DNA of 31,934 bases from a virus, in IMG/VR virus record IMGVR_UViG_3300009684_001783, positions 1-31,934 of that record. The stretch is one strand, 5' to 3'. The notes under the pieces were generated by a model. The model did not search any database. It saw only the letters and a program-made list of their open reading frames with translations, and was not told the DNA's origin. This document shows positions 5,837 through 30,666 of the stretch, piece after piece. Each line of letters starts with the position of its first letter. Position 1 is the first letter of the stretch. A program made the translations under genes and the position numbers.

Positions 5837-7693
5837 TCAGCTTGCTGGGTTAGCTTCTACATCAATTGGCCCATCATCTGTAGGTGCGTTTGATTGACTC
5901 TTGTAGATAATTTCACCCATCTTCATCAGGCTTTCACTCAATGATTGCAGTGCAGGTTGCATGTCTTCTACAGTATCTTTTGTCAATGCTTCACGTGCTT
6001 CAGAAAGTTTAACATCCAATTCTGCTTTGAGATCCGCAGGCAGTTTATCTTCATGTTCCTTCATTTGCTTTTCGGCTTGATGAATTTGGGATTCACCAAC
6101 GTTGCGAGTTTCAATTACCACACGCTTTTGCTTGTCAGATTCTGCATTTTCTTCGGCTTCTTTGATCATACGTTTGATATCATCGTCTGACAATCCGCCG
6201 CTGCTTTGGATAGTGACTTTTTGTTCTTTGCCAGTTGCAGAGTCTTTGGCACTGACATTGACAATACCGTTGGCATCAATATCAAATGTGACTTCAATCT
6301 GCGGCAAGCCACGAGGAGCAGGTGCAATACCTTCCAAGTTAAATGTTGCCAGCAGCTTGTTATCGCGGGCCAATTCGCGCTCACCCTGGCACACAGTGAT
6401 TTGAACGCCGGGTTGATTGTCCTGTGCAGTACTAAACGTCTGACTTTTACGAGTTGGAATAGTAGTATTGCGTTCAATCAGTTTGGTGAACACGCCGCCC
6501 AGCGTTTCGATACCCAAGCTTAGCGGGGTAACATCCAACAGCAGCACATCTTTGACATCGCCTTGCAATACACCTGCTTGAATAGCCGCGCCCATGGCAA
6601 CTACTTCGTCAGGGTTAACTGAACTATTGAGAGGTTTACCAAAATATGCTTTAAGTGCATCTCGTACTGCTGGTATACGAGTGGTACCACCTACTAAGAG
6701 TATATCTTTAACATCGTTAACTGACATATTTGCATCGTTAAGTGCTAATTTACAGGGTGCTATAATTCTATCAACTAGGTCACTAGTAAGGCTATTAAAT
6801 TTAGACCTTGATAGTTTGCAAACCAAATGTTTAGGACCACTAGCATCCGCAGTAATGTATGGCAAATTAACATCGGTTTCTAGACTGTTACTAAGTTCAA
6901 TTTTGGCTTTTTCTGCCGCTTCGCGTAAACGTTGTAGTGATACACTGTCTGTGGTCAAGTCTATACCGTAGTCTTTTTTAAATTGGTCGGCCATCCAGGA
7001 TACTATACGAGAATCGAAATCACTACCACCAAGATGCGTATCACCGTTTGTACTCAATACTTCGATGACACCGTCACTGATATCCAATACAGACACGTCG
7101 TGAGTACCGCCACCGGCATCTACAACGATGATTCTACCATTACTATTAGTGTCTACTGCAAATGCCAACGCAGCAGCAGTCGGTTCGTTAATAATACGCA
7201 GCACTTCCAGACCAGCGATTTTACCAGCATCTTTAGTTGCCTGACGTTGTGCATCATTGAAATATGCAGGAACTGTGATCACTGCTTGATGAACTTTTTC
7301 GCCTAAATATTCTTCCGCTGTTTCTTTCAGCTTGGATAAAATTTTTGCAGAAATCTCTTGTGGCGAATATGTTGTATCATTTGCACTAATAAGTGCATCA
7401 TTGTTAGCAGATGCAACAATGGTATATGGCAATAGTTTTCTGTCATCTGTAACAGACTTATCACTGAACTTACGACCGATCAGACGTTTAACTTCAAAAA
7501 TTGTATTTTTACTATTGGTTACAGACTGACGCTTGGCAGCTTGCCCGACCAACTGCTCGGTACCTGTCCACGATACTATACTGGGTGTTGTACGCATACC
7601 CTCTGAATTTTCTATTATTTTGGGGGTAGAACCATCTATAAATGCAATTGCACTATTTGTTGTACCCAAATCTATTCCGATTATCCGACTCAT
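5837..7693 (-). CDS. dnaK: Hsp70 chaperone DnaK
   Basis: Encodes 618 residues, nearly the length of bacterial DnaK (about 638). ATPase-domain signatures are in place: [10 protein letters not shown] (5-14), a [20 protein letters not shown] block, [35 protein letters not shown] and [11 protein letters not shown]. The linker ([18 protein letters not shown]) and a full substrate-binding domain with helical lid follow. The second phosphate motif reads DAGGGTHD where DLGGGTFD is usual. The extreme C-terminus (DVEANPAS) differs from the EEVxD-like tail of the cellular protein. The ribosome site is AAAGGAGACAAC, with a promoter-like TTGAAA/TATATT pair upstream. No DnaJ or GrpE is in the window, so it would rely on host or distant phage partners. 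A phage DnaK would be expected to support folding or virion assembly. Confidence 0.95.
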
Positions 7694-9552: not shown

Positions 9553-9864
9553 TTATTCCACAGGAGTCATATCTGCCACAAGCGGATAACCATTTTTACG
9601 TGCAATGGCAATGGTTTCGTCGCGCTTTTGTGTTGCAACCTCGTGACTGTAAGTACCAGCAATACCACGGTCATTGTTGTGAATATTCATCATAATATCT
9701 TGTGCTTCTTCAAAGCTGCGATGGAATATCTGCATCAACACAAGTACAACAAACTCCATACTGGTTTGGTCATCATTAAGCAACCATACATTCCACATAC
9801 GTGGCGGACTAAGAGTGACTTTGTCTACCACTGTAACTACTGTATCTGTTTTAATGTTTGCCAT
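9553..9864 (-). CDS. clpS: ClpS N-end-rule protease adaptor
   Basis: Encodes 103 residues, starting at ATG with TAGGAG upstream. The ClpS core is complete: WNVWLLNDDQTSMEFVVLVL (24-43), IMMNIHNNDRGIAGTY and EVATQKRDETIAIARKNGYPL. Residues lining the N-degron pocket in E. coli ClpS (Asn34, Asp35, Asp36, Thr38, Met40, His66) are matched here by Asn30, Asp31, Asp32, Thr34, Met36 and His62. In bacteria ClpS hands N-degron substrates to ClpAP. No ClpA is in this window, so the phage ClpS would presumably act through host ClpA. It sits between Hsp20 and cyclophilin, each in its own terminator-bounded unit. Confidence 0.93.
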   Translation of the reverse strand: MANIKTDTVVTVVDKVTLSPPRMWNVWLLNDDQTSMEFVVLVLMQIFHRSFEEAQDIMMNIHNNDRGIAGTYSHEVATQKRDETIAIARKNGYPLVADMTPVE

Positions 9865-9927: not shown

Positions 9928-10401
9928 TTAAACTTGATCAGTGTTGACCTTTACATCAACAACATTGTTGGTGGTAATGGGTATGTTAATACCTTTTGCA
10001 GGTTCTGGTACTTCACGCAGCAATTCGATAATCAACAATCCGTCTTCGAGTTTAGCAGAAATCACTTTGATATGTTCTGCAAGTGTAAACTGTCGTTCAA
10101 AATCTCGTGCAGCAATACCGCGATGTATCCAGTTTCGTTCAGCCTGTTCATCTGCTTTGCTGCCTTTGACACTTAGAATACGATCATTGGTAATATTGAT
10201 ATCCAACTCGCCAAGTTTAAAACCTGCAACTGCAAGCTCTAACTTGTACACGCCGTTGTCGTGAATCAAATTATACGGCGGATATGTGGCGGGATTGCTT
10301 GTAACTCTTGCCATCATAGGCTCAAAGCCTATTGCAAAACGATTGAAATCTCTAAAAAGATCTTCCATAGAATTAATAACTGTAGATGGTAATTGACGCA
10401 T
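9928..10401 (-). CDS. Small heat-shock protein Hsp20 (IbpA-like)
   Basis: Encodes 157 residues, with a very strong ribosome site (TAGGAGGTATAAC) before ATG. The alpha-crystallin domain is clear: YPPYNLIHDNGVYKLELAVAGF, LDINITNDRILSVKG, RNWIHRGIAARDFERQFTLAEH, then ISAKLEDGLLIIELLREVPE. The GINIPI tail has an I-x-I element used for oligomer packing. It is an ATP-independent holdase that keeps unfolded proteins soluble. Hsp20 genes are known in T4-like cyanophages, so this fits a related phage. The promoter and hairpins just upstream (10437-10492) suggest regulated expression. Confidence 0.95.
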   Translation of the reverse strand: MRQLPSTVINSMEDLFRDFNRFAIGFEPMMARVTSNPATYPPYNLIHDNGVYKLELAVAGFKLGELDINITNDRILSVKGSKADEQAERNWIHRGIAARDFERQFTLAEHIKVISAKLEDGLLIIELLREVPEPAKGINIPITTNNVVDVKVNTDQV

Positions 10402-10495: not shown

Positions 10496-11749
10496 TCAGT
10501 TGGCAGCTTCTGCGGATTTGTTGTATACCTTCAACGGCTCGCAGCGATCATTTGCAACGTCTTCGGTAATAACAATACGGCGTACACCGTCATGCGATAG
10601 TGTAGGCAGTTCGAACTGCATACGTAGTAAAACTTTTTCAAGAATACTACGCAATCCACGAGCACCTGTTTTACGCTCCATTGCTTGTTTTGCAATAGCA
10701 TGAAGTGCATCGGGCTGGAATTCCAAGTCAACTCCATCAAGTCCAAACATTTTTTGGTACTGTTTGACAATTGCGCTCTTGGGTTCGGTAAGAATGTTTA
10801 CCAAATCTTCTTCCTTCAAATCGCAGAACGGCACCATAACAGGTATGCGTCCAATCAATTCAGGAATAAGACCAAACTTGATAAGGTCTTCTTGCCGAGT
10901 TTGAGAAATCAAATCAAACGTGTCTTTGTCGCTGATAGTTTGGCTGCTAAGAGTTGCACCAAATCCAATACCACTGCCTTTATCCAATCGCTTGTTGATG
11001 ATGTCAGTGAGTCCAACAAATGCACCGCCCAGAATAAACATGATATTCTTGGTGTTGATCATAATAAATTCACCATGCGGATTCTTACGACCACCAGTGG
11101 GCGGTACTTTGACATCGCAGCCTTCGATCATTTTCAGCAGGGCTTGTTGTACGCCTTCGCCGCTTACGTCACGTGTGATGCTGCTGTTCTCACTCTTGCG
11201 ACCTTTTTTATCAATTTCGTCGATGTAAACAATGCCGCGTTCGGTTTTTTCAATGTCTTGGTCTGCTGCTTGATACAGTCGTGCAATTGCTTCTTCTACA
11301 TCAAGACCAACATAACCACTTTCAGTCAAGCTGGTAGCATCAATAATGACCATGGGTACATCCAGCAGTTTTGCAGCTTGCTGAATAATGTAGGTCTTAC
11401 CAACACCAGTAGGCCCGATAAACATAAGGTTTGTCTTGTCGATCTCTACACCGTCGATAATGGAATTATCAACACGTTTCATGTGCGAATAGATTGCAAC
11501 ACTCAACATCATCTTGGCTTGATGTTGTCCAACCATTCGCTCATCCAAATATTCCATAATTCTCTGTGGTGTCAGTTGTGTAGGATTGGACTTTGGCGGT
11601 ACAAATTCCTCTTTTAGTACACCGTGGCACAGTTCCACGCATTCGTTACATATATAAACGTCATTACCGCTGATTAGCTTATTGACTTCGTTTTGGTTCT
11701 TGCCGCAGAAACTGCAAGAAACGGTAGGACGTGAAGTATCCCGGCCCAT
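10496..11749 (-). CDS. clpX: ATP-dependent Clp protease ATP-binding subunit ClpX
   Basis: Encodes 417 residues, full length (E. coli 424). The zinc-binding domain has Cys12, Cys15, Cys34 and Cys37. Walker A GPTGVGKT is at 112-119, the pore-1 loop GYVG at 145-148, Walker B with DEID at 177-180, and the sensor and C-terminal domain regions follow (KTGARGLRS). The IGF loop that docks on ClpP is intact (261-263, in GSGIGFGA), so the protein should engage a ClpP peptidase. No ClpP gene is in the window, making host ClpP the likely partner. It begins 3 bases after the upstream gene with GAGGG as ribosome site. It could redirect host proteolysis or act as an unfoldase on phage complexes. Confidence 0.97.
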
Positions 11750-18233: not shown

Positions 18234-19043
18234 CTACATTTTAATCCTAGGCGCGATTATTCTACCTTTGTAGTAACCATTTGGTATTACGTCTGTTGGC
18301 GATATACGAAGATTATTTGTGCCATTTGTTATCCAAATACTAAAAGTTTTTCCCTTCATCGCAACAGACAATTTTGCTTTATGTTCATCTGATATCGTCC
18401 TGCCAAGTTGTGAACTAGACATTTTAGCTTTAGTTTCGTCTGATAATTTTTTACCTAAATTAATAGCAGACAATTTTGATTTGTGCTCGTTGGATAATCG
18501 TCTGCCAGTATTAGCTATTGATAGGTTAGCCTTATGTTCGTCTGATAATGGTTGTCCGCGTCCTCTGTGATGCCCTGTATTCGCAGCTGATATTTTTGCT
18601 TTTGTCTCGTTGGAACATATCTTGCCTTTACCAGCTGCTGATATTTTTGCTTTTGTTTTCGCTGTTGGTTTATAATTTCGATTTTTATTACGTAATTTTT
18701 CACGTGTTTCGTTACTTACAACTTTACCGGTATGTAATTCGGACATTGCCGCAGCATGCAATATTTTTAATCTTTCATATAATCTGTTTGTTGTGCGTTG
18801 TAATCGATTAGTAGATGCACACATCATTGCAGCGGCAAATATTAATTTATGATTAAAAGGGTAAATTTTAATTAAAAGCTGGTGAGCTACAAAATGTTCT
18901 CGTGCAGTTAGATTAACTAAGTTTGTTGCATCATCCGTACCGTCCATACATTTTGGTATAATATGATGCTTCTCTGTATATCCTGTGGTAATTCTAAGTT
19001 GCGCACGATATATTAACGCATCATATATCTTTTTATAATCCAT
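18234..19043 (-). CDS. HNH homing endonuclease with seven NUMOD3-like repeats
   Basis: Encodes 269 residues and is visibly more A+T-rich than its neighbours. An HNH catalytic region begins with EKHHIIPKCMDGTD (His26-His27) and continues with NLTAREHFVAHQLL (Asn44, His50, His54). About seven repeats of the NUMOD3 DNA-binding type follow (S-N/D-E-T/H-K-A-K-x-S-x-x-N-x-G-K), then a C-terminal ITNG...PNGYYKGR domain. This is a free-standing homing endonuclease that would cut related phage genomes lacking it, spreading its own gene. Its ribosome site lies inside a hairpin at 19045-19075. Confidence 0.9.
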   Translation of the reverse strand: MDYKKIYDALIYRAQLRITTGYTEKHHIIPKCMDGTDDATNLVNLTAREHFVAHQLLIKIYPFNHKLIFAAAMMCASTNRLQRTTNRLYERLKILHAAAMSELHTGKVVSNETREKLRNKNRNYKPTAKTKAKISAAGKGKICSNETKAKISAANTGHHRGRGQPLSDEHKANLSIANTGRRLSNEHKSKLSAINLGKKLSDETKAKMSSSQLGRTISDEHKAKLSVAMKGKTFSIWITNGTNNLRISPTDVIPNGYYKGRIIAPRIKM

Positions 19044-19693: not shown

Positions 19694-20086
19694 TTAGGCA
19701 GATTTATTTGCCATTTTTTCTAGTCTTGCTGCACGAGCCGACGCTTGCGCCGCCTTGCTTTTTTCAACATGCGCAAGACCTTCAACCAGTGCAGTTTGCA
19801 TGGCAGCAATGCCCTTGTCGTCCAGTATCACTTCGCCTGTGGCAGTATAGTAACCTGTGAACAATACCTTTGTCGCTATGGTAATACGACGCCATAGGTT
19901 CTCCGGCCAATTATATCGCGGATAAATGCCCACTTCCATACTGATATTAAGTCCAACTGATTCAAGCTGCGCATGTGGCTCAAACCAAAGCTCGCAGTCG
20001 TGGTTGCTATCAAGGCAGTCACAGGCTATGCGCCAATGACCTGACCCATCTGAATAGTCGTTGAGTTTCATGAGTTTTTCTTGCAC
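19694..20086 (-). CDS. Hypothetical protein
   Basis: Encodes 130 residues from GTG at 20086 with AAGGAAC 4 bases before it; an ATG at 20071 is an alternative. The N-terminal domain has an HWRIACDCLDSNHDCELWFE beta-type motif with two or three Cys and His, which could bind metal. The C-terminal 50 residues are Ala/Lys-rich helix (KSKAAQASARAARLEKMANK). It lies immediately downstream of the tRNA in the same direction. Function unknown. Confidence 0.7.
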   Translation of the reverse strand: MQEKLMKLNDYSDGSGHWRIACDCLDSNHDCELWFEPHAQLESVGLNISMEVGIYPRYNWPENLWRRITIATKVLFTGYYTATGEVILDDKGIAAMQTALVEGLAHVEKSKAAQASARAARLEKMANKSA

Positions 20087-20103: not shown

Positions 20104-20180
20104 TGGTAGGGAATGCAGGACTCGAACCAGCAACCTACGGATTATGAGTCCGGCGCTCTAACCAATTGAGCTAATCCCCC
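20104..20180 (-). tRNA. tRNA-Ile2 (anticodon CAU, lysidine type)
   Basis: On the minus strand a 77-nt cloverleaf folds: acceptor GGGGGAT/ATTCCCT, D-arm GCTC/GAGC, anticodon stem CCGGA/TCCGT (27-43 not paired), loop CTCATAA with anticodon CAT, T-loop TTCGAGT, discriminator A and encoded CCA at 20104-20106. The T-stem has a T-T mismatch. CAT alone could be Met, but the weak 27-43 pair, the similarity to bacterial Ile2 and the TilS gene 8 bases upstream point to tRNA-Ile2, which reads AUA only after TilS converts C34 to lysidine. One 3'-CCA is already encoded. Confidence 0.9.
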
Positions 20181-20188
20181 AATGTGTA

Positions 20189-20794
20189 TTATATAGCACG
20201 TTCCTTTTGATCATGCAACCGTTTCATAATCATTTTATGAATGCCGGGATTTACTTTAAGAACATGCGGCATCAACTCCTTGCGGATGTAGTTGCGAGTC
20301 AGTTCCAGCTTTTCATTGCTGGTATCTTCAATCCACGGAATATCACGTTGCGTACACCAGTTGCGCAACTCAAACTTTCTAGTACCTAGAAACGGACGTA
20401 CCACGTTGCCACGATGCAGTTGCGGTAGTTTTGGCTGGCCATTCAAGCTACCCCAGACCCAGGTTTCAACTGCATCGTCGAGATGATGTGCAGTAACTAC
20501 AGTTTCGCCCAATGCGTCTAAGAATCCATAACGCTGGTCGCGCCAATATGCTTCCAAGCTTTCGTTTCTACCACGTTCTTTATTCACAGTGCCGATCACC
20601 AATGGGATATTTTCAGTATCGCAATAGCTTTGAACAAACTGCAATGAGTCTTTGCTGTTGTCACTGCCGTGATCAAAATATGCAGCAGCGACAGTGTGAT
20701 TCCTACGCAAGAAATCCAATGCAGCCATAGAATCTACGCCGCCAGAACAGGCAACATACAATTCACGCGGCAGTTTTTCCATAAGCTTGATCAT
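20189..20794 (-). CDS. tilS: tRNA(Ile)-lysidine synthase TilS, N-terminal catalytic domain
   Basis: Encodes 201 residues. The PP-loop ATPase motif SGGVDS is at 17-22, the HHLDDAVET motif at 103-111, RPFL at 133-136 and the EDTSN ... RNYIR motif (156-171) that holds the tRNA anticodon region. These are the defining motifs of TilS. Most bacterial TilS proteins have about 430 residues with two extra C-terminal domains; this one keeps only the catalytic part (Aquifex TilS has about 311). It converts C34 of tRNA-Ile2 to lysidine. The tRNA lies 8 bases after its stop, so enzyme and substrate are on one transcript. Confidence 0.92.
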   Translation of the reverse strand: MIKLMEKLPRELYVACSGGVDSMAALDFLRRNHTVAAAYFDHGSDNSKDSLQFVQSYCDTENIPLVIGTVNKERGRNESLEAYWRDQRYGFLDALGETVVTAHHLDDAVETWVWGSLNGQPKLPQLHRGNVVRPFLGTRKFELRNWCTQRDIPWIEDTSNEKLELTRNYIRKELMPHVLKVNPGIHKMIMKRLHDQKERAI

Positions 20795-20797
20795 CTG

Positions 20798-21517
20798 TTA
20801 CACCGTATTGCGCCACGGATATTCACCGTTGTATCTACCATACATGACACTGTTGCCGTTGTCAAAGAATTGTTTGTTCACACTGTTGGGATTTCCATCC
20901 AGTCTGTAATTTAATGTATACAGGCCAGTGGTTCCCCATTGTGGAAAGTGTTGTGATATAGCTGATAGGAAACGTCTATCGCCTCCCCAGCCCCAATGCC
21001 ATGCAGAACCAATCTGTGTGATAACATCTCTGCGAATGCAGAAACTGCTGGTATCCACCAAGTGATGTTCACTGCTGAGATAGATAGGCCATTTGCCAAG
21101 GCTCTCGCAATCATCCAAACAGAGATAGTTGCCATACTTGTCTGTAATCTTACGTAAGCTGTGACCCCATTGCCAGTCATTGCGTTCAATGGCTGCTATC
21201 TGTGTGGACACATGGTTGTTGTCAAACCAGTTGTCTTGATCTAGAAAAAGTATGAAGTCTGTGTTAATCAAATGTCCGGCTGCTGCATAGATGCGGTGCC
21301 CGTAGAATCCATTGGCACCCGTGTTCTCCGGTAGCTGCAAAACATGCAAACGGTTTCGGTATGGTGCTATGACTGCGTCAACTGCTGTGGTAAACACAGG
21401 GCCGTCTGTTACAACCCATACACGGGTGTCTGCGTGATCTTGTGCAAGTGCAGATTCCACTGCTTTTGCCAGTTCATTGCTGCCTGTTGCAGCTATAACA
21501 ATTGTTGCTGTACTCAT
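20798..21517 (-). CDS. Family-2-like glycosyltransferase
   Basis: Encodes 239 residues with an early ATIVIAATGSNELAKAVESALAQ strand-helix, DGPVF near 39-43, a GANGFYGHRIYAAAG segment and the DxD-type motif FLDQDNWFD (91-99), followed by a GWGGDRRFLSAI acceptor region. The N-terminal layout is GT2. It precedes TilS by 3 bases in the same direction. With the cytidylyltransferase and the other GT genes it indicates glycan modification by the phage. Target unknown. Confidence 0.85.
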   Translation of the reverse strand: MSTATIVIAATGSNELAKAVESALAQDHADTRVWVVTDGPVFTTAVDAVIAPYRNRLHVLQLPENTGANGFYGHRIYAAAGHLINTDFILFLDQDNWFDNNHVSTQIAAIERNDWQWGHSLRKITDKYGNYLCLDDCESLGKWPIYLSSEHHLVDTSSFCIRRDVITQIGSAWHWGWGGDRRFLSAISQHFPQWGTTGLYTLNYRLDGNPNSVNKQFFDNGNSVMYGRYNGEYPWRNTV

Positions 21518-29952: not shown

Positions 29953-30666
29953 ATGGCGAGAAAATTTGTGTCTCGTGCAACGGCTGTACATCGTATCGCC
30001 ATGCCGCCAAGAGTCGTCATACCCACCGAAGAACAAATTCAAAATAAGATAATTGCTGCCAGTGTACAGCAAGAAGCAATAACTGCTGTTGTACCAGAGC
30101 CAGTTATAGAGCCAATAGCTGAACCGGAACCGGAACCAGTTATAGAGCCAGAGCCAATAGCTGAGCCAGAACCGGAACCAGTTATAGAACCAGAGCCAAT
30201 AGCTGAGCCAGAACCGGAACCAGTTATAGAACCAGAGCCAATAGCTGAGCCAGAGCCAATAGCTGAACCGGAACCGGAACCAGTTATAGAACCAGAACCA
30301 ATCGCTGAACCAGAACCTGCTGATAAAAAGTATACCATAGCAATATTGTTTAGAGGTACGATTAGAGGTGATGTGAATACTGTTATAGAATTCATACAGA
30401 ACAGTATAGACGAATTAAGAGCAAATAATCACATAGTGCATGCATATCTTGCAACATGGGGAACTACACACGATCCTAAGATCAGTGCGTTACTGTCTGC
30501 TATAAAATTTGAAAACGTTATTTTACAAACTGCACCGGCATTAGAACAAATTCAAAGATTTGTTAAAAAATCTGCGATGGGATGCTATCCGATTAGTAAT
30601 ATGTACCGCATGTATTACAAAAACAAAAACTGCGTTGGATGTAATAACAAGTGCATACAATTATGA
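29953..30666 (+). CDS. Glycosyltransferase-like protein, N-terminal part (frameshifted)
   Basis: Encodes 237 residues on the plus strand, ending at a TGA in an apparently shifted frame. Residues 1-45 form a basic N-terminus. A Glu/Pro/Ile repeat tract follows (units like [14 protein letters not shown]). From about residue 122 a domain starts with [21 protein letters not shown], like a WavE-like or GT-type enzyme, with an [11 protein letters not shown] segment. The natural continuation ([16 protein letters not shown]) lies in another frame at 30560-30988. So the reading is either broken by an indel or joined by a +1 frameshift at the A5 runs (30619-30629). No close ribosome site is obvious. 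Confidence 0.65.
30094..30318. repeat. Tandem 42-base Glu/Pro repeat
   Basis: About four to five copies of a 42-base unit encode repeats of the type [14 protein letters not shown] in the glycosyltransferase-like gene. Copies differ by single bases (GAGCCA/GAACCA, GAACCGGAACC), so slippage is easy. It makes a flexible charged linker. Too regular in frame and too low in complexity to be CRISPR. Confidence 0.9.

Follow-up and report, generated by a model that had tools for sequence, protein, structure and literature searches.

The window, that is, the whole stretch of 31,934 nucleotides of the virus record IMGVR_UViG_3300009684_001783 that was analysed, is a fragment of a phage, with topoisomerase II subunits that match phrog_551 and phrog_543. 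As the preliminary description had stated, the gene of a tRNA with a CAU anticodon and that of a tRNA(Ile)-lysidine synthase (TilS) lie 8 nt apart on one strand, and both genes are intact (Table 1). The tRNA is the single one that ARAGORN detects in the window, and the Rfam tRNA model gives it 66.8 bits versus a gathering score of 29. Within the spacer there is no promoter-like match on the minus strand, and in the motif scans promoter-like matches occur at chance number and terminator-like ones slightly above chance, none of them being decisive. With this arrangement tilS and the tRNA would be expressed in a coupled manner, and the co-transcription of tilS with the glycosyltransferase gene directly upstream of it is possible.

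Table 1. Features of the tilS-tRNA locus and its surroundings (positions in the window; residues in the TilS protein)
Feature	Position	Strand	Basis
Homing endonuclease	18234-19043		
130-aa ORF with no assigned function, 17 nt downstream of the tRNA	19694..20086	-	
tRNA-CAU, probable Ile2, CCA encoded	20104..20180	-	ARAGORN, Rfam tRNA
Encoded CCA of the tRNA	20104-20106	-	
Spacer from tilS stop codon to mature tRNA 5' end, 8 nt	20181..20188	-	
tilS, N-domain-only tRNA(Ile)-lysidine synthase, 201 aa	20189..20794	-	ORF and profile matches
TilS PP-loop SGGVDS	residues 17-22		
TilS HHLDD..ET	residues 103-111		
TilS RPF	residues 133-135		
TilS D157, N160	residues 157, 160		
TilS RNxxR	residues 167-171		
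TilS NPG, virus-specific	residues 182-184		
GT2-family glycosyltransferase, directly upstream of tilS with a gap of about 3 nt	20798..21517	-	
tRNA nucleotidyltransferase (CCA-adding), listed ORF 408 aa	27007..28233	-	PF01743 105 bits, phrog_2244 216 bits

Elsewhere in the window, a chaperone and protease cluster on the minus strand (5837-7693, 9553-9864, 9928-10401 and 10496-11749) comprises a full-length DnaK, ClpX, a ClpS-sized protein with a phage match to an ATP-dependent protease and a Hsp20-like ORF of 157 aa, judged by eye, a set that is unusually complete for a phage. One of the few plus-strand genes, the ORF at 29953-30666, contains a long run of repeated units and is rich in AUA (21 of its 30 Ile codons).

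The 201-aa protein matches the TilS signature TIGR02432 (lysidine_TilS_N) with 128 bits versus a cut-off of 93.6 and PF01171 with 119 bits, while the TtcA model gives it just 19 bits, versus 125-275 bits for short TtcA-like bacterial controls. Its three sequence matches in the PDB are every one a TilS. The AlphaFold model, computed with 31 viral sequences as input, has a mean pLDDT of 94.5, and the best PDB folds for it are those of TilS (1wy5, 2e21 and 1ni5, TMq 0.81-0.86), with the A. aeolicus and E. coli TilS outranking TtuA. TtcA, TtuA or another PP-loop enzyme is ruled out by the scores of the two models, the TtcA controls and the PDB folds. Across 36 viral TilS sequences 31 columns are invariant, the conserved residues including S17GGVDS22, D107, E110, R133, D157, N160, R167, N168 and R171, and the ATP-binding loop and the other catalytic residues that are invariant in cellular TilS are retained in the viral clade. 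Between the window and the relative L016 the dN/dS of tilS is about 0.10 (dN 0.23 and dS about 2.2, which is near saturation); judged from this comparison, tilS is under purifying selection. By signature, modelled fold and motifs the protein is thus a genuine TilS, for which the formation of lysidine on C34 is predicted.

The preliminary description had also pointed out that this TilS lacks the C-terminal domains, and this is borne out by the relatives. A profile scan of viral contigs gave at least 557 contigs with such a TilS, and in all of the 85 loci measured the length is 195-205 aa; since the relatives are equally long, the length of 201 aa is real. The models of the C-terminal TilS domains, PF11734 and PF09179, give no above-cut-off match in either the window or nine related records; since many control genomes also fall short of the cut-offs of both models, the length is a stronger argument than the domain search. 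A truncated or split TilS is ruled out, the 85 relatives being of the same length and no C-terminal domain exceeding the cut-off elsewhere in the records. By contrast, in each cellular locus classed as TilS the protein continues for 92 residues or more past the matched N domain. In a maximum-likelihood tree of 30 viral-type TilS, 19 cellular TilS and TtcA, the 30 viral-type sequences form one clade (support 100/100) that is separate from cellular TilS and from TtcA.

Among ten short hits that were scanned there is no convincing cellular N-domain-only TilS: nine are TtcA-like and the tenth lies within the viral clade. It is noted that this tenth TilS (L094, on the Opitutia MAG contig PBSV01000107.1), which has three tRNAs downstream, falls inside the viral clade and its contig is therefore probably a phage contig that was binned with the bacterium.

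A further difference concerns the segment directly after HHLDDxxET. In the cellular sample this is the loop RG[ST]GxxGL, with R and L in 20 of 20 sequences, a feature of this 20-sequence sample that stands outside the curated definition of the family. In 30 of 30 viral sequences the segment is absent, with a four-residue deletion and a changed sequence, mostly [H/N]GxP (e.g., NGQPKLP or HGTPKVI), in its place. Without this loop the chemistry or the partner of the viral enzyme could differ.

We now consider the tRNA. Its acceptor stem contains G1:U72, G3:C70, G4:C69 and G5:U68, its anticodon loop CUCAUAA is closed by A31:U39, it has A15 and U48, and mismatches occur at C27/U43 and U51/U63. An initiator tRNA-Met is marked by a GGG/CCC anticodon stem and a mismatch at 1:72. 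Here the pairs 29:41, 30:40 and 31:39 are G:C, G:C and A:U and 1:72 is G:U, so that these marks of an initiator are absent. The CAU anticodon, A37, A38 and A73, which are features of Ile2, are all present.

Whether the tRNA is Ile2 or an elongator tRNA-Met was evaluated with a position profile trained on 71 distinct cellular CAU tRNAs (29 Ile2 and 42 elongator Met), the labels of which were taken from the acceptor stem and from the partner tRNA in the same genome. In leave-one-out evaluation the profile makes no error among the 29 Ile2 and none among the 42 elongator Met. The whole tRNA of the window scores +12.8 bits towards Ile2, the tilS-linked tRNAs of L007 and L010 score +33.4 and +41.3 bits, and L005 scores only +4.3 bits. 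The acceptor part of such a score is partly circular because the labels use the acceptor stem; the non-acceptor part of the window score, +11.6, is above that of all elongator Met (maximum 5.1) and inside the Ile2 range. The value depends on what enters the profile: it is +1.2 bits with a smaller first training set and +3.4 bits with positions 26-73 alone, and its sign changes between training on other bacteria (+8.4 bits) and training on alphaproteobacteria only (-12.6 bits), a label that was inferred from the tRNAs of the training genomes. Individual positions separate the classes as well, with G3:C70 occurring in 22 of 29 cellular Ile2 and A15 together with U48 in 3 of 29, versus none of the 42 elongator Met in either case. 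In the related genomes G004 and G007 an additional, separate Met-like elongator tRNA with U32 is present, and their ACUCAUAAU tRNA is therefore Ile2 by exclusion; the CAU tRNAs of G001 comprise two initiator-like ones, one other elongator and three of the window type. The preliminary assignment to Ile2 is thus favoured by the linkage to tilS, by the exclusion in relatives and by the full-tRNA profile, with the alphaproteobacteria-only profile speaking against it; on all this evidence together, we regard the tRNA as probably Ile2.

Two observations on these tRNAs may be added. One tRNA of G001 (L175:2378-2454, on a 518-kb contig) is identical to that of the window over all 77 bases and sits in a separate tRNA array, while the tilS of G001 is just 70% identical to that of the window and the tRNA copy beside it has one base different from the window tRNA, which suggests, as far as sequence comparison goes, conversion or transfer of the tRNA. 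Phage MIJ3 has two CAU tRNAs (L221:331-407 and 812-888) with identical anticodon and T arms and differing acceptor stems.

The pairing of the two genes is conserved. Within the subclade that holds the window (support 97/94), a CAU tRNA follows tilS on the same strand after a spacer of 8-28 nt (distances of 9-29 when counted to the first base of the tRNA) in L014, L016, L017, L018, L020, L024 and L010, and thus in all members whose contig reaches past tilS, L023, the contig of which ends 41 nt after tilS, being outside this count. Around tilS, L014, L015 and L016 have neighbour genes in common with the window, among them the glycosyltransferase gene and the 130-aa ORF, which are common only to these three and the window. 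Near tilS in L004-L007, L010, L017, L018, L020, L022 and L024 there are no window genes save for one weak match in L017, on the opposite strand. The group of the window and L016 and that of L010, L017, L018, L020 and L024 therefore have only tilS and the tRNA in common, apart from this match. Because L007, L010, L006 and L017 have flanks in common with one another, these are two contexts rather than seven. As the two genes stay together in two groups whose flanks differ, the pairing looks selected, as judged from gene order. The preliminary description had suggested that the short enzyme may be a minimal version tuned to this one tRNA; most viral relatives, among the 85 loci measured, have the same short TilS and no nearby tRNA.

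Other translation-related genes were seen on contigs of this kind. A permuted tmRNA gene of alphaproteobacterial type is present on many TilS-bearing phage contigs: it lies upstream of tilS on the same strand, at about 0.5-1.7 kb, in the group of L010, L017, L018, L020, L023 and L024, and is found also in G001, G002, G004, G007, G008 and G016-G018, with tag peptides given by ARAGORN that include ANDNFVRNEQIAQSIVVRDRDLVAA and ANDNVAPRLALAA; in the window itself there is none. In TilS-bearing huge phages, predicted tRNAs with a CUA anticodon (amber suppressor type; tRNA-Pyl according to ARAGORN) occur at L008:5225-5302 and in the tRNA array of G001. In the 634-kb phage W02 (LR745206.1) several stretches, including 32300-33595 and 404849-405808, give matches to the model of methionyl-tRNA synthetase, of which the strongest has 326 bits, just below the cut-off of 336.

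Based on these data, we propose that the locus is probably a two-gene phage cassette, in which a virus-lineage, N-domain-only lysidine synthase is combined with its substrate, the CAU tRNA. The enzyme would use ATP to adenylate C34, lysine would then replace AMP to give L34, and the tRNA with L34 would accept isoleucine and decode AUA. Because there is no domain that reads the acceptor stem, recognition by the enzyme probably centres on the anticodon arm. According to a published study, the TilS of E. coli and that of B. cenocepacia both contact the acceptor stem, the former requiring C4:G69 and C5:G68 and the latter G3:C70 along with its own D-loop (PMC12514573). Of these pairs the window tRNA has only G3:C70, and the absence of C4:G69 and C5:G68 fits an enzyme without an acceptor-reading domain. 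The latter two pairs occur together in 23 of 29 cellular Ile2 versus 4 of 17 CAU elongator tRNAs of TilS phages, the 17 being not independent and some of uncertain isotype. Since cellular Ile2 without them occur, the pairs are not required in all bacteria, and several phages with the same short TilS retain them. From its acceptor stem, the window tRNA might thus be poorly modified by the TilS of some hosts; a host TilS that needs both pairs may act on it inefficiently, and this would account for the phage having a TilS of its own.

It is also conceivable that the adjacent tRNA is an elongator tRNA-Met for AUG, the position of which after tilS is inherited, and that TilS targets the host tRNA-Ile2 or other phage tRNAs. 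G4 and G5 of the acceptor stem resemble elongator Met, the anticodon arm is one base from that of the alphaproteobacterial-type elongator Met of genomes G103 and G123, the alphaproteobacteria-only profile points the same way, with the tmRNA type of the relatives hinting at alphaproteobacterial hosts, and many TilS phages have no adjacent tRNA. However, G3:C70 and the combination of A15 with U48 occur among cellular Ile2 and in none of the 42 elongator Met, the tilS-linked tRNAs of L007 and L010 are clearly Ile2-like, and the linkage is retained across differing flanks, so that we consider this reading unlikely.

The short TilS might instead depend on a host partner, for example the host TilS, for holding the tRNA and so not be autonomous; alternatively, it might have taken on a new role with its tRNA activity lost. 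This would accord with the residues that all cellular TilS examined retain after the N domain, with the acceptor-stem contacts of the two bacterial enzymes and with the loss of the loop in the viral clade. Yet the ATP-site and other catalytic residues are invariant in the viral enzymes, the selection on tilS is strongly purifying, the same architecture has long been retained in hundreds of contigs and tilS is linked to a plausible substrate tRNA, which makes such a loss of autonomy or activity improbable. The loop replacement in all viral sequences would also be expected if the changed loop meant a changed small-molecule site, with an amine other than lysine being attached; as the other conserved TilS residues remain, this would be very surprising. 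A TilS that modifies its neighbouring tRNA is thus the reading that we prefer.

An extension of the proposed cassette, which we put forward only tentatively and hold to be rather doubtful in its full form, is that the viral TilS represents a third, virus-only architecture that reads the anticodon arm only and evolved together with a phage CAU tRNA lacking the determinants for host TilS, possibly on a body derived from elongator Met, the two forming a self-contained, host-orthogonal pair for AUA.

Two other proposals of the preliminary description concern the use made of the pair. The phage might, as was argued there, raise AUA decoding independently of the host. Its genes show no corresponding enrichment: AUA makes up 193 of 660 Ile codons (29%) in the chosen window genes versus 38% expected from four-fold sites. 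The CCA-adding enzyme that was counted with the set is present, its true start being possibly an inner ATG about 54 nt into the listed ORF; however, it is not specifically part of the set. With CCA already present in the gene, maturation of this tRNA does not require the enzyme, which is a related function outside the cassette.

The interest of the system lies in the fact that TilS must distinguish two CAU tRNAs, an ability which in bacteria is credited to the tRNA-contacting C-terminal domains. Hundreds of viral TilS without these domains, some of them linked to their likely substrate, provide a natural minimal system for the choice between Ile2 and Met, and make it testable whether phages bring a codon-reading modification besides the tRNA.

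It is useful to compare the locus with known systems. The tRNA-Ile(CAU) of phage T4 depends on lysidine for reading AUA; T4 is not known to bring a TilS of its own and relies on that of the host. Viral TilS itself is already known, and what appears unreported is the N-domain-only viral lineage and the tilS-tRNA cassette, for which no report was found in the literature searched, most subscription papers lying outside it. In the accessible part of the MIJ3 paper, TilS is called a first for phages, with no function given and no discussion of the missing domains (PMC6892783). The TilS of the jumbo phages MIJ3 and PA5oct belong to the same viral lineage in the tree, are about 36% identical, have 203 aa and consist of the N domain only; like the window, these phages carry CAU tRNAs, but at least about 5 kb separate tilS from the tRNAs, and there is no cassette. 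Ralstonia phage RsoM2USA encodes a TilS together with 44 phage tRNAs; this TilS has 349 aa, so that it is not N-domain-only (PMC8504454), and the phage search did not return it among the relatives. Chloroviruses, which infect algae, also encode a TilS, proposed to overcome the host AUA codon bias, and its adjacency to a substrate tRNA is not described in the part of the source available (PMC7589089). Among bacterial enzymes, type I (NTD, CTD1 and CTD2) and type II (NTD and CTD1) are described, the accessible text making no mention of a type without CTD1 (PMC12514573). With both types the viral enzyme shares the catalytic N domain, the motifs and the fold, while it differs from them in being without both C-terminal domains, in having the loop replaced and in forming a monophyletic clade of its own.
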